Shown here one piece after another: positions 35,495 through 44,536 of a stretch of DNA of 53,227 nt (within the stretch, counting starts at the first letter, position 1; every line of letters starts with the position of its first letter). Source of the DNA: Bacteroidota bacterium (GTDB lineage: Bacteria; Bacteroidota; Rhodothermia; Rhodothermales; JANQRZ01); contig JBCDKT010000027.1 in NCBI GenBank assembly GCA_038746285.1, positions 1-53,227 on the forward strand. Reading direction: 5' to 3'. The translations under genes and the position numbers were made by a program. The notes beneath the pieces were generated by a model. It saw nothing but the letters and a program-made list of their open reading frames with translations. It was not told the DNA's origin and did no database searches.

Positions 35495-36778
35495 CTACCC
35501 AACCTCCGCCACTTCGGCGGCGACGGCGGCCTGCGCTTCCTCGGCGTCCGGCGTGCCCGGCTCGGGGAGAAAGCGCCACACGAGCGCGGCCATGAGCAGG
35601 ATCACGACGGCCGAGAGCAAGGTCGTCGAGCGGTAGCCCATCCCGGCGTAGGTCGCGCCCGCTAGGCTCGCGCCGAGGCCGGTCCCGATCTGCCCGATGG
35701 CGATCGTCAGCGAGAGGAGCGTGCCGCGCAGCTTGTCCGGCACGAGCGCCGTCAGGAGCGCCTGCAGCGGCGACATCCGCATCGAGAAGAGCCCCATGAT
35801 GGCGACGTAGAACGGGTAGGCCACCCACCGGTCCTCCACGGCGTAGGTCAGCGCCGCGATCACCACCGACAGGCCGAGGCACGACGCCAGGATCAGCGGC
35901 TTCCGCCCGATCCGGTCCGAGAGCGTCCCGGCCCACGGACCGACGAGCACGCTCACCGTGCCCCCGACGAGGAAGAGCGTCGCGATGAAGTCGATGGGCA
36001 CGCTGCCGACGGCGAACGGCTTGCCGAAGAGCGTGACGTCGAGCGAGAAGTTTGCCGTGAGCCACTGCGGGAGGTAGACCACGAGCAGGCTCAGGCTGAG
36101 GTACATCAGGAAGTAGGTCGCTGCCGCGGCCCGGACCGAGGCCGCGCCGAGAAGGTCGCGGTAGCGCCGGAGCGTGCCCAGGACCGTCACCTTGCCCGCG
36201 TCCAGCTCCACGTCCGGCTGCGGCACCACCTGCCAGATCAGCACGAACGCCACCGCCATCAGCGCGGCGAAGGCGAGAAACGGGAGCCGGAAGCCGGCCG
36301 CCGCCGCCAGCACGCGCCCCAGCGGAATCCCGATCACGAGCCCGAAGGCGACCCCGCTCATCACCCAGCCCGTCGCCCAGCCGCGCCGCTCGTACGGGAA
36401 GTAGTCGCCGACGTAGGACACGGCCGCGCCGCTGAGCATCCCCCCGGCGGCCCCGGCGAGGGCCCGGACGAGGAGCATGCCGGTGTAGCTCTGCACGAGG
36501 CCGTGCAGCGCCAGCATCGCCGCCAGCGCCCCCGACCCGAGCAGCAGCACCCGCCGCCGCCCGACCCGGTCCGAGATCGGCCCCATCACGACCGCCGCGA
36601 CGGCGAGCGTGAACGAGTAGACCGTCACGAGCGTCCCGCGCAGCGACTCCGGGATCGAGAGGGCGTCCCCGATGATGGGGAGGATCGGGGTGATGATGAT
36701 GGTCTGGCTCGCGGCCGTGAAGACCATCAGCCAGAGCGAGAAGAGGATGCCGTAGGTGCGGGGCGTAGCGCGGGCCAC
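35495..36778 (-). CDS. Major facilitator superfamily transporter
   Basis: A 427-residue membrane protein with twelve predicted spans and the MFS A-like loop GPISDRVGRRRVLLLGSG between spans 2 and 3, repeated as GTLSDRIGRKPLILAS between spans 8 and 9, marking the duplicated halves. GTG at 36778 (VARATPRTYGILF) places the start right before span 1; an upstream frame reaches 36883 without membrane or ribosome-site support. The fold suits a drug/H+ antiporter or sugar-type exporter of the YfcJ/Bcr kind; no substrate motif was seen. It diverges from the TonB-receptor gene and may share the 11-bp repeat array. Confidence 0.9.
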   Translation of the reverse strand: MARATPRTYGILFSLWLMVFTAASQTIIITPILPIIGDALSIPESLRGTLVTVYSFTLAVAAVVMGPISDRVGRRRVLLLGSGALAAMLALHGLVQSYTGMLLVRALAGAAGGMLSGAAVSYVGDYFPYERRGWATGWVMSGVAFGLVIGIPLGRVLAAAAGFRLPFLAFAALMAVAFVLIWQVVPQPDVELDAGKVTVLGTLRRYRDLLGAASVRAAAATYFLMYLSLSLLVVYLPQWLTANFSLDVTLFGKPFAVGSVPIDFIATLFLVGGTVSVLVGPWAGTLSDRIGRKPLILASCLGLSVVIAALTYAVEDRWVAYPFYVAIMGLFSMRMSPLQALLTALVPDKLRGTLLSLTIAIGQIGTGLGASLAGATYAGMGYRSTTLLSAVVILLMAALVWRFLPEPGTPDAEEAQAAVAAEVAEVG

Positions 36779-36940
36779 GTAGAAACCTGTTGGAACGAAG
36801 ACCCGGATAAGCCGGGGTCGGGGAAAAGTTGCAGGGCTCAGGGATGGAGGAGCGGAAGAGCTCAGGATGCGCCGCCGAGTCAACCCTCCCCGCTTCCGCT
36901 CTTTCCCGCTTCCGCCCCTTCACGCCGTCTCCGCGGCCGG

Positions 36941-36995
36941 GTAACACTACGGTAACACGCCCCTAACAGCGGGGTAATGTGAGCGCTCTAAGTTG
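36941..36995 (+). promoter_or_regulatory. PhoB-like operator: four 7-mers at 11-bp period plus -10 box
   Basis: GTAACAC (36941), GTAACAC (36952), CTAACAG (36963) and GTAATGT (36974) are spaced exactly 11 bp, as OmpR/PhoB-family response regulators bind. TAAGTTG at 36989-36995 begins 9 bp after the last repeat and would be the -10 box, the array standing in for the -35. The TonB-receptor gene starts 75 nt further on. A second array of the same build is at 41597. Confidence 0.65.
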
Positions 36996-37070
36996 CGAGT
37001 TCTGAGTGGAAGTGGGGCTTCCACTCGCCTCCCATAGACAGCTCTCCTCCCACAACCTGGAGCGAACCCC

Positions 37071-39938
37071 ATGCTTACTCCCATGCTTGTCGTGCGCCGT
37101 GCGCACATTCTCCTGTCAGCCGCCGTCGCGCTGACGCTCCTCCTCGCCACGCCGGCCGTGTTCGGTCAGACCGGTACAATTGCCGGGGTCGTCGTAGACC
37201 AGGACCTCGGCGAGACGCTCATCGGCGTCAACGTGCTCGTCGAGGAACTCGGCACCGGGGCCGCTACCGGCCTCGACGGTGATTACCGGATCGCCGGCGT
37301 CCCGGCCGGGACCTACACCCTCGTCGTCTCCTACCTCGGCTACAACACGCAGCGCGTCACGGGCGTCGCCGTGACCGAGGGCACTACGACCGTCGACGTC
37401 GCGCTCACCGAAGAGACACTCGAACTCGAAGGTGAGGTCGTGGTCGAGGCGCGGGCGCTGCGCAACAACGAGGCGACGCTGCTCCGGGACCGCCAGAAGG
37501 CGGCCGGGCTGAGCGACGCCGTCTCCGCCGAGACCATCTCCCGCAGCGGCTCCTCGAACGCCGCCGACGCGATGGAGAAGGTGACGGGCGCGAGCGTTCA
37601 GGACGGGCGCTACATCTACGTCCGCGGCCTCGGCGACCGCTACATGAACACCCAACTCAACGGGGCCACGCTCCCGAGCTCGGACCCGGACCGCAACGCC
37701 GTCCCACTCGACCTCTTCCCCGGCGGGCTGCTCGACAACATTGTCACCTCGAAGACCTTCACGCCCGACAAGCCCGGCGACTTCACCGGCGGCTCGGTCA
37801 ACATTGCCACGAAGTCGTTCCCCGACCAGCTTACGCTCGGGTTCTCCTCGTCGATGTCGGTCAACACGAACGCCGCGCCGGGCAGCGACATCCTGGCCGT
37901 GCCCGACGGCCTCGGCGTGCTCGGCACCTCGGACAACGACCTCCCGGCGGCGCTCGAAAACGGCGACGTGCCGACGATCGGCGAGACGTTCGGCAACGCG
38001 GCTGAGGCGCAGGAGCTGGACCGCCTCTCCCGGTCCTTCAACGCGTCGATGGCCCCGGCCGTCAGCGCCGCCCCCGTCGCGCAGAGCTACAGCTTCTCGC
38101 TCGGCAACCGAACCGAACTGGCCGGCCGTCCACTGGGCTTCATCGCCTCGGCCAACTGGAGCCGCAGCACCTCGGCCTACGACGACGGGCGCTTCGGGCA
38201 GTTCTCGCTGCCCGGCAGCGGCGACGGCGTGACCGAACTCACCTCGGACCTCCGCCTGACCGATCAGGCCGGCAGCGAGGAGGTCCTCTGGGGCGGGCTG
38301 GCGAACCTCTCGTACCGCCCGGCGCAGCGCCACGAACTCGGGCTGAACGTGCTCTACAACCGCAGCGCGTCGCAGAGCGCCCGCCTCCGCACCGGGGCCT
38401 TCCCGCGCGACCTCTCGGCGGACCAGGTCTTCGAGACGCGTGCCCTCGAAACGATTGAGCGGACGCTGGCCTCCGCGCAGCTTCGCGGCGAGCACGCCTT
38501 CTCGGACCGCGGCGTGCAGGCCGAGTGGAACGCCTCGCTCGCCCGCTCGGCGCAGGACGAGCCGGACCTCCGCTTCTTCTCCAACCACTTCACGCCGGGC
38601 GCGGCCGACACGTCGTTCACGATCGCCGCCAACCTCTACCCCGAGCCGACGCGCTACTTCCGCGACCTCGAAGAGAACAGCGCAACCGCCAACCTCGACG
38701 TGACCGTACCTGTCCGGCTCTTCGGCCGCGCGGTCCGGGTCAAGACCGGCGGCTCGTTCCTGGCGAAGGGCCGCACGTTCCGTGAGCGCCGCTACGAATA
38801 CCAGCGCAACGTCAACCAGCTCGTCTATTCCGGCGACGAGGACGCCTTCTTCGGCGACCAGAACGTCGGCATCATCGGGCAGGACGACGACGGCCGGCCG
38901 GTCTTCGGGAACTACCTCGTGGACCTCTCGACGCCGCGCAACAACTACGACGGCCGCCAGACGGTCGCGGCCGGGTACGGGATGGTCGACGCCGCGGTCA
39001 CGGACCGGCTCCGCCTCATCGCCGGCGCGCGCGTTGAGACGACCGACATTGAGGTCGAGAACCTCGCGGCCCAGCGAGACCGGGGCACGATCAGCGAGGT
39101 CGACGTGCTGCCGTCGCTGAGCAGCGTCTACGCGCTCTCGGACCGGATGAACGTCCGTGCCGCCTACGGCCGAACGCTCGCCCGTCCGACGTTCCGCGAG
39201 TTCGCGCCCTACACCACCTACGACTTCGTCGAGAACCTGATCTACGTCGGCAACACGGACCTCGAGCGCTCGCTCGTCGACAACGTCGACCTGCGCTGGG
39301 AGTGGTTCTTCCAGCCCGGCCAGATCGTCGCCGTGAGCGGGTTCTTCAAGCAGTTCGACGGCCCCATCGAGCGCGTCATCCGGTCGGCCGCGACCAACCT
39401 CGAGGTCGAGTTCAACAACCTCGAATCGGCGCAGGTCTACGGGCTGGAGATGGAAGCCCGGACGGGGCTGGGCTTCGCCGGCCGCGCCCTCCGTCACTTC
39501 CAGGCCGGGGCCAACCTCACGCTCGTCCAGTCGGTCGTCGACATCGACGCCGCAGAGCTGGCCCAGATCCGCGCCAGCAACCCCGAGGCCGACGACACGC
39601 GCTCGCTCCAGGGCCAGTCGCCCTACGTGGTCAACCTCGACTTCGGGTACGAGAACCTCGAGCGCGGCACGGCCATCAGCCTCTTCTTCAACGTCTTCGG
39701 CGAGCGGCTCTACGCCGTCGCTCGGGGCGGGGCCCCGAACTACTTCGAGCAGCCGCGCAGCGTGCTCGACGTGGTCGCCTCGCAGGAGGTGGGGCGCGGC
39801 TTCACCGTCAAGCTCTCGGCCAAGAACCTCCTCGACGCGCGCTACGAGATCGTGCAGACGTTCCGGGGCCGCGACTTCGTCAACCGGGGCTACAGCCAGG
39901 GCCGGGCGTTCTCGCTCGGCGTGAGCTACAGCCTCTAA
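37071..39938 (+). CDS. TonB-dependent outer-membrane receptor
   Basis: A 955-residue receptor. The signal peptide (about 1-33, ending VFGQ) is followed by a carboxypeptidase-regulatory-like domain (GTIAGVVVDQDLGETLIGVNV to about residue 115), the plug domain (about 140-250, GASVQDGRYIYVRGLGDRYMNTQLNG) and a 22-stranded barrel ending in a typical aromatic C-terminus (AFSLGVSYSL). The plug and TonB-box region belong to the group that works with a separate surface lipoprotein. The next gene encodes such a lipoprotein, 60 bp on. The upstream operator suggests control by phosphate limitation; the substrate is unknown. Confidence 0.93.
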   Translation: MLTPMLVVRRAHILLSAAVALTLLLATPAVFGQTGTIAGVVVDQDLGETLIGVNVLVEELGTGAATGLDGDYRIAGVPAGTYTLVVSYLGYNTQRVTGVAVTEGTTTVDVALTEETLELEGEVVVEARALRNNEATLLRDRQKAAGLSDAVSAETISRSGSSNAADAMEKVTGASVQDGRYIYVRGLGDRYMNTQLNGATLPSSDPDRNAVPLDLFPGGLLDNIVTSKTFTPDKPGDFTGGSVNIATKSFPDQLTLGFSSSMSVNTNAAPGSDILAVPDGLGVLGTSDNDLPAALENGDVPTIGETFGNAAEAQELDRLSRSFNASMAPAVSAAPVAQSYSFSLGNRTELAGRPLGFIASANWSRSTSAYDDGRFGQFSLPGSGDGVTELTSDLRLTDQAGSEEVLWGGLANLSYRPAQRHELGLNVLYNRSASQSARLRTGAFPRDLSADQVFETRALETIERTLASAQLRGEHAFSDRGVQAEWNASLARSAQDEPDLRFFSNHFTPGAADTSFTIAANLYPEPTRYFRDLEENSATANLDVTVPVRLFGRAVRVKTGGSFLAKGRTFRERRYEYQRNVNQLVYSGDEDAFFGDQNVGIIGQDDDGRPVFGNYLVDLSTPRNNYDGRQTVAAGYGMVDAAVTDRLRLIAGARVETTDIEVENLAAQRDRGTISEVDVLPSLSSVYALSDRMNVRAAYGRTLARPTFREFAPYTTYDFVENLIYVGNTDLERSLVDNVDLRWEWFFQPGQIVAVSGFFKQFDGPIERVIRSAATNLEVEFNNLESAQVYGLEMEARTGLGFAGRALRHFQAGANLTLVQSVVDIDAAELAQIRASNPEADDTRSLQGQSPYVVNLDFGYENLERGTAISLFFNVFGERLYAVARGGAPNYFEQPRSVLDVVASQEVGRGFTVKLSAKNLLDARYEIVQTFRGRDFVNRGYSQGRAFSLGVSYSL

Positions 39939-39998
39939 CCGCGTCCGGTGTGCCGGCCCCAGGTGGGTGCGGCGGATGCCTCCCATCGACCCTTCATC

Positions 39999-41480
39999 AT
40001 GACCCACACCATGACCACACGCCTGAAACGCCTCACGGCCCTCACCGCCCTCGCGCTCCTCGCCTTCACCGGCGTCGGCTGCGACAGCGACGGCGACGAG
40101 GACCCGCCCGAGGAGACCTTCACGCTCTACGAAGCCTTCTCTGGCCCCGCGGGCGACGGCGTCCGCATCACCGACCGCGGTGAGGGCACGGGCTCCCGCA
40201 CGCTCTCGGCCGACACCACGTACTACCTCAGCGGGTTCGTCTTCGTCAACAGCGGCCAGACGCTCACGGTTGAGGCAGGCACAGTCGTGCGCGGCTTGCC
40301 GGGCGCGGGCGAGGACGCCTCGGCACTCATCGTCGCCCAGGGCGGGCGGATCGAGGCCAGCGGCACGGCCACCAACCCGATCATCTTCACGAGTGCCGGT
40401 GACGACGTGACCAACCCGAACGACATCCCGGCTGGCACGAGCGGCCTCTGGGGCGGCGTCATCCTCCTCGGCAACGCACCGACGAACACGACGCCCGCTG
40501 TCGTGTCGATCGAGGGTATTCCGACGACCGAAGCGCGCGGCAGCTACGGCGGCAGCAGCGCAGCCGACAACTCCGGCACGCTTCGCTACGCATCGATCCG
40601 CTACGGCGGCACCGACATCGGCGCGGGCAACGAGATCAACGGCCTCACCCTCGGCGGCGTCGGCTCGGGTACGACGGTCGAGTTCGTCGAGGTCTTCGGC
40701 AATGCCGACGACGGCGTCGAGTTCTTCGGCGGCACGGTCAACACGAAGTACCTCGCCGTCGCCTTCGTCGGCGACGACTCGTTCGACACCGATCAGGGTT
40801 ACGTCGGCGACAACCAGTTCTGGTTTGCCGTCCAGTCGGCGACGACCGGCAACCGTGCCGGCGAGCACGACGGCGGCGATGCCGACCTCGGCGGCGAGGA
40901 CGCCACGCCGTTCTCGACGGTCCGGGTCTCGAACGCGACCTACATCGGCTCCGGCGCGGCCTCGGGCAACGACGACAACGACCGCGTCCTCGAAGTCCGG
41001 GACAACGCAGCGGTGGAGTTCCACAACTCGATCTTCACCGACTTCGCCGACGGCGGCATCCGCATCGAGGACCTCGCCGACGCCGCGGCCCAGGACAGCC
41101 GCGCCCGCTTCGACGCGGGCGACTTCGCTTTCCAGAACAACTACTGGTTCGGCTTCGGGGCTGGCGGTGACCTGGAGAGCCTCATCGACCTCACCAAGAT
41201 CGAAGACAGCGACGACGACGTGGACCCGGCCTTCCGCGCGACGCTCGCCGGTGCCCTCGTCGCTGGCGGCAACGTCCTCGTCGATCCTCAGCTTGCTGGC
41301 ATCAGCCGCTCGGCCGACGGCGGCCTCAACCCGACGCTCGCCGCCGGGAGCCCCGCCCTCACCGGGGCCGAGATCCCGACGGGCGACTTCGAGAGCGTGC
41401 CCTACGTCGGAGCCTTCGGGGCGACCAACTGGCTCAAGGGCTGGACGGCGCTCGACGCCCTCGGCTATCTCGCTGACTAG
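39999..41480 (+). CDS. Right-handed beta-helix surface lipoprotein paired with TonB receptor
   Basis: A 493-residue lipoprotein with a signal peptide ending FTGVGC (Cys about residue 30) and an acidic Asp/Glu tether (DSDGDEDPPEE). The rest has repeated short strands (TLTVEAGTVVRG, GGRIEASGTATNPIIFTS, LRYASIRYGG, VEFVEVFGNADDGVEFFGG) of a right-handed parallel beta-helix, with several Asp/Asn-rich turns that could bind calcium. Proteins of this type are commonly encoded next to a TonB receptor in Bacteroidota; I know no proven ligand. ATG at 39999 or 40011 are both possible. A hairpin terminator follows. Confidence 0.8.
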   Translation: MTHTMTTRLKRLTALTALALLAFTGVGCDSDGDEDPPEETFTLYEAFSGPAGDGVRITDRGEGTGSRTLSADTTYYLSGFVFVNSGQTLTVEAGTVVRGLPGAGEDASALIVAQGGRIEASGTATNPIIFTSAGDDVTNPNDIPAGTSGLWGGVILLGNAPTNTTPAVVSIEGIPTTEARGSYGGSSAADNSGTLRYASIRYGGTDIGAGNEINGLTLGGVGSGTTVEFVEVFGNADDGVEFFGGTVNTKYLAVAFVGDDSFDTDQGYVGDNQFWFAVQSATTGNRAGEHDGGDADLGGEDATPFSTVRVSNATYIGSGAASGNDDNDRVLEVRDNAAVEFHNSIFTDFADGGIRIEDLADAAAQDSRARFDAGDFAFQNNYWFGFGAGGDLESLIDLTKIEDSDDDVDPAFRATLAGALVAGGNVLVDPQLAGISRSADGGLNPTLAAGSPALTGAEIPTGDFESVPYVGAFGATNWLKGWTALDALGYLAD

Positions 41481-41538
41481 GTAGGACCGTTAAGCACGAC
41501 TGCGGCACCTGTGCTGTACCGCCCGGTATGGCCAGCCC

Positions 41539-41582
41539 GGACGCCGGTTTCCTCGTGGGAGGGGAGCCGGCGTCCTTCGTTT
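41539..41582 (+). terminator. Terminator after the TonB receptor/lipoprotein pair
   Basis: GGACGCCGG (41539-41547) pairs perfectly with CCGGCGTCC (41567-41575), followed by TTCGTTT. It separates this pair from the PlcP-like operon. Confidence 0.75.
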
Positions 41583-41596
41583 AGGGCGGCTGTTTC

Positions 41597-41651
41597 GTAA
41601 TGTGCCGTTATTGTCACGGTAATCTAGCCGTCACAGTGGCGCCCTACCATA
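41597..41651 (+). promoter_or_regulatory. Second PhoB-like operator array with -10 box
   Basis: GTAATGT (41597), TTATTGT (41608), GTAATCT (41619) and GTCACAG (41630) repeat exactly every 11 bp, as at 36941-36980. A TA-starting box (TACCATA, 41645-41651) begins 9 bp after the last repeat, the same spacing as at the first array. The PlcP-like gene begins 42 nt later. Confidence 0.65.
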
Positions 41652-41693: not shown

Positions 41694-42506
41694 ATGACGA
41701 CGCGGTATTTCCGCACCATCTGGATCTCCGACCTCCACCTCGGCACGCGCGGCTGCCAGGCCGACGCCGTGCTCGACTTCCTCCGCCACACCGACTCCGA
41801 GCGGCTCTACCTCGTCGGCGACCTCGTCGACGGCTGGGCGCTCCGGCGCGGCTGGCACTGGCCGCAGGCCCACAACGACGTGGTGCAGAAGCTCCTGCGC
41901 AAGGCGCGCAAGGGCACCCAGGTCGTCTACGTCCCCGGCAACCACGACGACTTCGCGCACCACTTCACCGGCCTCACCTTCGGCGAGATCGAGATCACGC
42001 GCGACGCCTTCCACGACACCGCCGACGGCCGCATCCTCCTAGTCCTTCACGGCGACCAGTTCGACGGGGCCGTGCGGCTGGCCCCGTGGCTCTCGCACGT
42101 CGGCGCGCGGGCCTACGAAGCGACCCTCGCGCTCAACACGGGCATCAACCGCGCGCGCCGGGCCTTCGGCCGGCCGTACTGGTCGCTGGCGGGCTACCTG
42201 AAGGGCAAGACCAAGAAAGCGGTGCAGTACGTCGCCGGCTTCGAGGAAGCGGTCGCCCGGCGCGCGCGCGAGCGCGACGTGGACGGCATCGTCTGCGGGC
42301 ACATCCACAAGGCCGAGCTGCGGCCCATCGGCGGCATCCTCTACGCCAACTGCGGCGACTGGGTGGAGAGCTGCACGGCGCTCGTCGAGCACGACGACGG
42401 CCGCCTCGAGCTCGTCCGCTGGCCGGCGTTGCCCGAGGCTGAGGGCCTCACCGGCGACGGCCTCGCCACGGGCCTTCCGGTCCTCGACACCCCCCGCCCG
42501 AGCTGA
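41694..42506 (+). CDS. plcP: PlcP-like phospholipase C (calcineurin-like metallophosphoesterase)
   Basis: A 270-residue metallophosphoesterase. Metal-binding motifs: SDLHLG with Asp13 and His15, VGDLVDGW, PGNHDD, a His in LHGDQFDG, and CGHIHKAE. Besides these it carries the long landmarks of alphaproteobacterial PlcP (SMc00171 type): TRGCQAD, WALRRGWHWPQ, NDVVQKLLRKARKGT, NTGINRARR and NCGDWVESCTALVEHDDG. PlcP releases diacylglycerol from phosphatidylcholine-type lipids under phosphate starvation. Automatic annotation often calls it a UDP-diacylglucosamine diphosphatase (LpxH-like), an alternative. The next gene is a glycosyltransferase, as in known plcP operons, and an 11-bp repeat array precedes it. 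Confidence 0.82.
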   Translation: MTTRYFRTIWISDLHLGTRGCQADAVLDFLRHTDSERLYLVGDLVDGWALRRGWHWPQAHNDVVQKLLRKARKGTQVVYVPGNHDDFAHHFTGLTFGEIEITRDAFHDTADGRILLVLHGDQFDGAVRLAPWLSHVGARAYEATLALNTGINRARRAFGRPYWSLAGYLKGKTKKAVQYVAGFEEAVARRARERDVDGIVCGHIHKAELRPIGGILYANCGDWVESCTALVEHDDGRLELVRWPALPEAEGLTGDGLATGLPVLDTPRPS

Positions 42507-42519
42507 GACTTCCGACTCC

Positions 42520-43671
42520 ATGCGCGCACTCTTCGTAGTCCAGGGCGAAGGCCGAGGCCACATGACGCAGGCGCTCGCGCTCAGCGAAGGGCTGGAGGCG
42601 CGCGGCCACGCCGTCTGCGCCGCGCTCGTGGGACGCGGCAACGGACGCTCGATACCGGCCTTCTTCAGCGAAGGAATCGAGGCCCCGGTCCACACCTTCG
42701 TCAGCCCAGGGTTCGCGTACGAAAACGGAGCTGTCCGGCTCGGGCGGACGCTACGCGAGGGGGCGCGGAAGAGCTGGCTCTACGCGCACCACCTCCAGAC
42801 GCTCGACCGCCAGATCACGGCCTACCAGCCCGACGTGGTGGTGGGCTTCTATGAGGGCATGGTGGGGCTGCACCGCCTCGCGTTCTCATCCTCGGTGCCG
42901 ACGGTCTGCATCGGGCACCAGTACATGTTCGGGCACCCGGCCTACCGGTTCGCGCCGGGACAGCGCCTCGGGCGAGCCGCGCTGCGGGCCTACACGCGGC
43001 TGACGAGCGTCGGCGCGGCACGGCGGCTGGCGCTCTCGTTCTATCCGGCCGAGGACCTGCCGGAGCGGCACCTCCGCGTCGTGCCGCCGCTGCTCCGCCG
43101 GGCCGTGCTGGACCTGGACGGGGACACCGACGACGGGTCGCTGCTGGTCTACCTCCTCAACCGGGACCGGGCCGAGGGGCTGGAGGCGTGGCACCGCCGC
43201 CACCGCGAGGTGCAGGTCCACTGCTTCTGGAGCGGCGAGGCCCGGCAGCCCCACCCAAACCTGCGGTTCCACCCGCTCTGCGGCACGCGCTTCCTGGAGC
43301 GGATGGCGCGGGCGCGGGGCGTGGTCTGCACCGCCGGGTTCGAGTCGGTCAGCGAGGCGCTCTGGCTCGGCAAGCCGGTCTGCATGGTCCCTACGCCGGG
43401 ACACCTGGAGCAGCGCACGAACGCGCTCGACGCGCAGCGCCTCGGAGCCGGCATCTGGCAGCCGGACTTCGACCTCGACGCGTTCCTCCGGTACCTAGAG
43501 CGGCACCCGGCCTCGGCACAGGCCGAGACGACGCAGGCTTTCCGGTCCTGGGTGCGCTCGGGCGAGGCGGCGGTGGTGCGGGAGATCGAATCGGCGGTCC
43601 GGGAGCGAACCGTGGCGCAGCCCGTCTGGTCGCCCGTGGCGGTCGGGTCCCGTGCGCGGGCTGCCACCTAG
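42520..43671 (+). CDS. Glycosyltransferase, GT28/UGT-like (probable glycolipid synthase)
   Basis: A 383-residue GT-B type glycosyltransferase. It begins with VQGEGRGHMTQALALSEGL (residues 5-23), an MJ1255/VC2487-like first nucleotide loop, and holds HQYMFGHP and the C-terminal donor-binding region with GFESVSEALWLGKPV and PTPGHLEQRTNA. Related proteins follow plcP in Bacteroidota. In other bacteria a glycosyltransferase next to plcP turns the freed diacylglycerol into glycolipids that replace phospholipids; that role is inferred from neighbourhood. The ATG lies 13 bp after the plcP stop, so co-translation is likely. Confidence 0.8.
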   Translation: MRALFVVQGEGRGHMTQALALSEGLEARGHAVCAALVGRGNGRSIPAFFSEGIEAPVHTFVSPGFAYENGAVRLGRTLREGARKSWLYAHHLQTLDRQITAYQPDVVVGFYEGMVGLHRLAFSSSVPTVCIGHQYMFGHPAYRFAPGQRLGRAALRAYTRLTSVGAARRLALSFYPAEDLPERHLRVVPPLLRRAVLDLDGDTDDGSLLVYLLNRDRAEGLEAWHRRHREVQVHCFWSGEARQPHPNLRFHPLCGTRFLERMARARGVVCTAGFESVSEALWLGKPVCMVPTPGHLEQRTNALDAQRLGAGIWQPDFDLDAFLRYLERHPASAQAETTQAFRSWVRSGEAAVVREIESAVRERTVAQPVWSPVAVGSRARAAT

Positions 43672-43789: not shown

Positions 43790-43819
43790 GGTGTCCACTT
43801 AAGCACGCGGAGGCCCCCA

Positions 43820-44536
43820 ATGCCTGTACGTTACGCCCTGTTTGTTCTGCTTGCGCTGCTGCTCGCCGCCCCCGGCGTGACGGCGCAGGACGCCACGACG
43901 TTCGACATCACGGTCGTGGACAAGGATATCCACCCGGACCCCGAAGCCTTCCCTGAGGTCTACGCCGTCGACGGCGTAGAAGGCGCGGAACTGACGCTCA
44001 CCCGAGGCGAGACCTACATCTTCCAGATGAACGATGTCCCGGTCTTCCACCCGTTCTACATCTCGACGAGCGAGATCGGGGCCGGCGCGGGCCAGTATAA
44101 CGACGGCGTGACCGGCAACGAAGCCACCGGCAACGACCAAGTCGTTTTCGTCGTCCCGATGGACGCGCCGGACCTGCTCTACTACGAGTGCACGTTCCAC
44201 CCTCGCATGGGCTGGCGGATGAACATCATCAACCCGATCTCCGACACCGAGGACGAGTTGCAGCCGGTCGCGTTCTCGCTCCGCTCGGCCTACCCGAACC
44301 CCTTCGATGGGACGACGCGGATCGAACTCGCGCTGGAGCGGGCGCAGGACGTGACGGTCGCCGTCTACGACGTGGCCGGCCGCCGCGTGGCGACGCTGCA
44401 CGACGGCGTCCTCCCGGCGAGTCTCTCGCACACGCTCGTCTTCGACGCGGCCTCGGGCCTCGCTGCCGGAACCTATATCGTCCGGGCGACGGCCGGCAAC
44501 GCGGTCGTCGAGCGGCCGATCACGCTCGTGCGCTGA
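43820..44536 (+). CDS. Secreted cupredoxin-like protein with type IX sorting domain
   Basis: A 238-residue secreted protein. The signal peptide [23 protein letters not shown] leads into a beta-sandwich of about 130 residues ([31 protein letters not shown]) in which the paired His and Cys residues resemble a cupredoxin copper site. The last 80 residues form a type A T9SS sorting domain: [31 protein letters not shown] and the final [11 protein letters not shown]. It is thus exported by type IX secretion. Copper binding is inferred from residue pattern only. A strong terminator follows. Confidence 0.87.

Follow-up and report, generated by a model that had tools for sequence, protein, structure and literature searches.

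Probable Pho boxes before a TonB-receptor operon and a plcP-glycosyltransferase pair in a Bacteroidota bacterium

Two arrays of 11-bp direct repeats in this genome are very probably Pho boxes, the operators of a PhoB-type response regulator. Box A precedes a TonB-dependent receptor and a lipoprotein, and box B precedes a plcP-like phosphoesterase and a glycosyltransferase. In the array consensus, four GTAAYRN units with an 11-bp period are followed after 8 bp by TAnnnT. Both arrays lie in the window, which is the whole stretch of 53,227 nt that was analysed (Bacteroidota bacterium, GCA_038746285.1, contig JBCDKT010000027.1, positions 1-53,227, forward). Below, genomes carry G numbers (the genome of the window is G000), loci L numbers and contigs C numbers.

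The two arrays and their operons

Box A (36941..36980, +) is made of the 7-mers GTAACAC at 36941, GTAACAC at 36952, CTAACAG at 36963 and GTAATGT at 36974, with 4-bp gaps. Its -10-like box, TAAGTT (36989..36994, +), begins 8 bp past the final repeat. Box B (41597..41636, +) has GTAATGT at 41597, TTATTGT at 41608, GTAATCT at 41619 and GTCACAG at 41630, again with 4-bp gaps, and TACCAT (41645..41650, +) follows at the same 8 bp. The original prediction described two arrays of four 7-mers with an exact 11-bp period and the same -10 spacing, and both arrays exist as described. It put a TA-starting box 9 bp after the last 7-mer; this is the ninth base, i.e. an 8-bp gap in both arrays. Its description of the 7-mers as GTAAYRB-like holds for five of the eight, which begin with an exact GTAAY, but the other three (CTAAC, TTATT and GTCAC) are off by 1-2 bases and fit it more loosely.

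A genome-wide search (4.08 Mb) for four GTAAY at an 11-bp period with at most 3 mismatches finds 3 places, and the reversed pattern finds 0. The places are boxes A and B and one site on contig C63. When a matrix is built from box A only and places overlapping A are set aside, box B (22.8) scores highest in the window. Periods other than 11 bp give far lower scores. The genome-wide count and the recovery of box B from box A together imply that the arrays exceed chance.

Box A starts 130 bp upstream of a TonB-dependent receptor with a CarboxypepD_reg domain (37071..39938, +; Pfam). In about 20 genomes of the order this array is likewise followed by a receptor of that type. The next open reading frame (39999..41480, +; alternative start 39948) encodes a probable surface lipoprotein, the receptor's partner. 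It has no Pfam or PDB match. Its relatives in G001, in G014 and beside the receptor paralogue on contig C64 all share the Cys after the leader. The AlphaFold model is mostly strands, with a mean pLDDT of 39.6 that makes it a low-confidence fold. The gene sits downstream of the TonB receptor, in the position of the FII-type surface lipoprotein of F. johnsoniae; that protein has a pectin-lyase-like (beta-helix) fold, and its gene is downstream of the low-phosphate TonB transporter. A hairpin like an intrinsic terminator, with a 15-bp stem, ends this first operon (41539..41575, +) and is also visible in L011.

The second operon begins 97 bp past the start of box B with a plcP-like calcineurin-type metallophosphoesterase (41694..42506, +; PF12850/PF00149). 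The protein is 55-67% identical to many proteobacterial homologues. Adjoining it is a glycosyltransferase of the Glyco_trans_1_3/GT28-C type (42520..43671, +; PF13528 at 7e-34, PF04101), a probable agt-type glycolipid synthase. The two are predicted to be a lipid-remodelling pair of phosphate starvation. The same adjacency of a PF12850-type gene and a glycosyltransferase is found in L011, L012, L014 and L040. Arrays precede plcP in L011, L012, L040, L051 and G050, and none was seen before the plcP of L014 with the first 7-mer matrix.

Two neighbours of these operons may be mentioned. An MFS transporter gene (35495-36883, -) is divergent to the TonB-receptor operon. Its arrangement with array, TonB receptor, lipoprotein and glycosyltransferase, in this order, is kept in G014 (L173), which is from another family of the order, and G001 (L227) adds plcP. 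The transporter may belong to the phosphorus system. The gene just after the glycosyltransferase (43817-44533, +) encodes a secreted protein that combines an At5g54830-like domain with a type IX secretion tail, and it is conserved in G001.

Recurrence of the array

We scanned the genome with a sequence-only profile (R1) made from 16 arrays of other genomes, with the sites of this genome excluded. It gave four matches up to E=10. They are box A before the TonB-receptor operon (E 5.7e-7), a 5'-nucleotidase (PF02872, E 0.11), a Na/Pi cotransporter (PF02690, E 0.63) and a choice-of-anchor-I secreted protein (E 0.71). Box A is the only one that is significant by its E-value alone, and the other three gain weight from the genes they precede. 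Two of the four precede clear phosphate genes, the 5'-nucleotidase and the cotransporter. Box B is absent from the whole-genome report of R1. It is the weaker of the two boxes, with TTATTGT as its second repeat, and it was probably dropped at the first filter of the scan. Scored with a matrix from the same 16 arrays, 142 kb of this genome's sequence (both strands, 284k positions) have box A at the top (47.5), ahead of box B in second place (22.2). The next ranks go to the paralogous TonB receptor on contig C64 and its lipoprotein, and then to the choice-of-anchor-I site. Ahead of this paralogue and of its lipoprotein gene (L010, at 8203 (-) and 4535 (-)) the array is weaker, with three repeats and TAnnnT in the same register. 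The genome's own phoB is also preceded by a three-repeat array, with TACCTT at +8.

Among 60 relatives R1 finds 47 matches in 39 genomes at E<=0.05, and the reversed profile (R2) finds 2. Some of these matches played no part in training, among them the ones before plcP (L251), choice-of-anchor I (L255) and a porin (L260). Phosphatase-type genes of relatives, too, are preceded by the array. The four-repeat pattern leads in these relatives to TonB receptors, porins and PhoB-like regulators. The array lies directly before a porin-pstS-phoU-pstC operon in G020, G003 and G008, and a weaker one does so in G023. The G020 stretch reaches far enough to show pstA and two pstB-like genes further along the operon. 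Its PstS and PhoU are well supported (PF12849 at 7.7e-42 and PF01895 at 1.5e-27); the porin names rest on similarity judged by eye and on context, and the porin of G020 is without a significant Pfam match. Arrays stand before phoB-type genes in G020, G003 and G023, and in G005, G019 and G029 with a receiver-like gene between. In these last three (L191, L190 and L185) a near-perfect Pho box is followed by the receiver-like gene, which has no evident DNA-binding domain, and then by a second PhoB-like regulator gene. By the first 7-mer matrix, the strong pst/phoU loci of G011, G006, G009, G002 and G018 have no good array, which means that some pst operons of the order are without a recognisable box. 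It must be noted that this first matrix had one repeat of box B 1 base out of register (GTTATTG for TTATTGT). R1, the matrix from its arrays and the box-A-only test are unaffected by the shift. A loose pattern allowing three mismatches gave 55 matches in 30 relatives against 32 for the control. This is noisy, with many background matches in the AT-richer genomes, and the loose pattern was replaced by the profile and its reversed control. The original prediction had proposed a genome scan for matches before pst, phoU or phosphatase genes, and the outcome is positive: the 5'-nucleotidase and the cotransporter in this genome, pst and phoB in the relatives.

In the phylum beyond this order, matches at E<=0.001 occur in 16 genomes, where about 0.3 would be expected from the E-value. 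We read 15 of these loci. The gene after the array is a TonB receptor at eight of them, an OprP-like porin at two, a metallophosphoesterase at one and a member of the same lipoprotein family at one. The other three (L265, L268 and L274) have no clear phosphate gene. L268 has three identical GTAACGT units before a gene like a sugar-nucleotide epimerase and looks like a chance tandem repeat.

Of 30 non-training arrays, 25 have TAnnnT exactly 8 bp past the last repeat, and 2 or fewer have it at any other offset. The count is biased, since 28 of the 30 loci came from a profile containing the -10. A pattern without a -10 term found 11 TonB-receptor arrays in the relatives, and ten of them also show TAnnnT, with the choice of register partly weighted by the -10. 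The final repeat lies where a -35 box would be, in most arrays with 8 bp to the -10, and no sigma-70-type -35/-10 pair is seen around the arrays. The promoters of the 5'-nucleotidase (L229, C5:104389 (-)) and of the choice-of-anchor-I gene (L007/L009, C63:2548 (-)) have their likely -10 (TAGTCT and TAGGTT) roughly one 11-bp step beyond the usual offset, at 19-20 bp from the end of the last clear repeat.

The candidate PhoB and competing readings

The PhoB candidate of this genome is encoded around C17:47886-48569 (best match 5.9e-74), and a histidine kinase gene comes directly after it. Its DNA-binding domain aligns with the E. coli PhoB structures 1QQI, 1GXP and 3T72. The recognition helix is DRTVDVHVRKIREKL, nearly identical to DRTVDVHIRRLRKAL of E. 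coli PhoB. A reading helix that is almost unchanged fits a box with a single core-base change (GTAAY here, GTCAY in E. coli).

We argue for the following scenario. When phosphate is scarce a PhoR-like kinase would phosphorylate PhoB. PhoB molecules would occupy the 11-bp repeats as a head-to-tail stack, with the last repeat standing in for the -35 box, and would bring RNA polymerase to the TAnnnT -10 one fixed step downstream. Stacking and polymerase recruitment are established for E. coli PhoB and are carried over here by analogy. Box A would turn on the TonB receptor and the surface lipoprotein, which would probably capture phosphorus compounds. Box B would turn on PlcP and the glycosyltransferase, which would probably strip phosphate from phospholipids and substitute glycolipids. 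We infer the binding by PhoB, the response to phosphate and the substrates of these proteins from the sequences. Several features point the same way: 11-bp tandem repeats; their position before pst, phoU, phosphatase genes and phoB; a PhoB orthologue in the genome. For the TonB receptor, the most frequent neighbour of the array, the link to phosphate comes from homology and co-occurrence. The original proposal of a Pho box of this lineage is thus backed, at the level of sequence, by the matches in this genome, by the pst and phoB arrays of the relatives and by operons of the types expected from other bacteria (PMC8115612, PMC4796936).

Some observations weigh against Pho boxes. Besides the weakness of box B and the pst operons of the order that show no recognisable array, the usual phosphate sensor seems to be missing, as PstS has no match in this genome (G000, 96.6% complete) and the best PstB match reaches 149.5 bits where the cut-off is 343.2. 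No PstB passes the cut-off in the congener G001 either. G002, which is from the same family, has a pst operon and a PstB at 394.1.

One can imagine that the arrays belong to a different response regulator of the OmpR family with the same 11-bp geometry, one that serves envelope or other nutrient genes and phosphate genes only in part. Binding to tandem sites like these is common in the family, which has several members per genome, and the TonB receptor is tied to no known substrate. We nevertheless consider this improbable. The matches cluster on pst operons, phoB, plcP, porins, the 5'-nucleotidase and the Na/Pi cotransporter, the recognition helix of the candidate is nearly that of E. coli PhoB, and the F. 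johnsoniae homologues are phosphate-responsive and reported to be repressed under iron and nitrogen limitation (PMC8115612). It is slightly less probable still that these are Pho boxes which repress instead of activate, or which act without replacing the -35 box. Some genes are indeed repressed by PhoB-type regulators, activation does not follow from spacing alone, and the -10 of the 5'-nucleotidase and choice-of-anchor-I promoters is likely at 19-20 bp, not 8. Against this, in most arrays the last repeat occupies the -35 place with TAnnnT at exactly 8 bp, no sigma-70-type pair surrounds them, and the F. johnsoniae counterparts are induced by low phosphate. That the arrays are chance or compositional repeats has next to no probability, even though short degenerate 7-mers are frequent and the loose pattern exceeds its control only by 55 to 32. 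This reading is refuted by the controls (3 against 0 in the genome, 47 against 2 in the relatives with the reversed profile), by a register and a -10 conserved across families, and by the recovery of sites in this genome with a profile from other genomes.

Known Pho systems and the proposed Pho box of the Bacteroidota

The proposed box shares with the E. coli Pho box the 11-bp head-to-tail repeats of a 7-bp core and 4 loose bases, the -35 position, the -10 at a fixed step and the class of genes (PMC2648988, PMC4415409). It differs in its core, which is GTAAYRN instead of (CT)GTCAT, so that A replaces C at the third core base and the TGTCA core is not present. Since the core of Pho boxes varies by lineage, TGTCA is not a defining feature of them (PMC4415409). 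The arrays here usually have four repeats and not two, the -10 is reduced to TAnnnT, and the commonest target is a TonB receptor with a lipoprotein, unlike in E. coli.

The target genes resemble those of F. johnsoniae. There low phosphate induces a CarbopepD-type TonB transporter followed by a lipoprotein (at the phoBR locus), a PF04101/GT28 glycosyltransferase and PlcP (PMC8115612). The regulon is the same gene set, including PhoBR and OprP, and plant-associated members are without PstSABC (PMC8115612), as the genus here is without PstS and PstB. That study is of the transcriptome and proteome and the term 'Pho box' is absent from its main text, whereas our subject is the operator itself, in another lineage of the phylum. 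The second operon has its likeness in the PlcP-Agt operon of Alphaproteobacteria, SAR11 and marine bacteria, where a calcineurin-type phospholipase gene and a glycosyltransferase gene are adjacent behind a predicted Pho box (PMC4796936). In marine Alphaproteobacteria this pair swaps phospholipids for glycolipids under phosphorus shortage (PMC4796936). The glycosyltransferase here is of the Glyco_trans_1_3/GT28 type, and the core of the Pho box is different. F. johnsoniae also has a PF04101 glycosyltransferase.

Low-phosphate regulons of Bacteroidota are known from measurements (PMC8115612, PMC3547664); the paper on PhoB of B. fragilis treats the Pho box only generally (PMC3547664). We found no operator sequence for these regulons and no published Bacteroidota Pho box in the open-licence literature searched. 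Within it the original description of the box as apparently not described stands. We think the chances are somewhat better than even that an undescribed Pho box is common to the phylum Bacteroidota and links TonB-receptor/lipoprotein phosphorus systems to PhoB, and that in this genus, which would be Pst-free, PhoR senses phosphate in some other way. With a defined box one could predict the phosphorus regulon for many Bacteroidota genomes, and the prediction would extend to lipid remodelling and to outer-membrane receptors with no assigned substrate. A genus with a PhoB-like regulator and boxes but without PstS and PstB makes Pst-free phosphate sensing a testable question. With no PstS match in G000 and no PstB above the cut-off in G000 or G001, the genus has kept PhoB, the PhoR-like kinase gene and the boxes.
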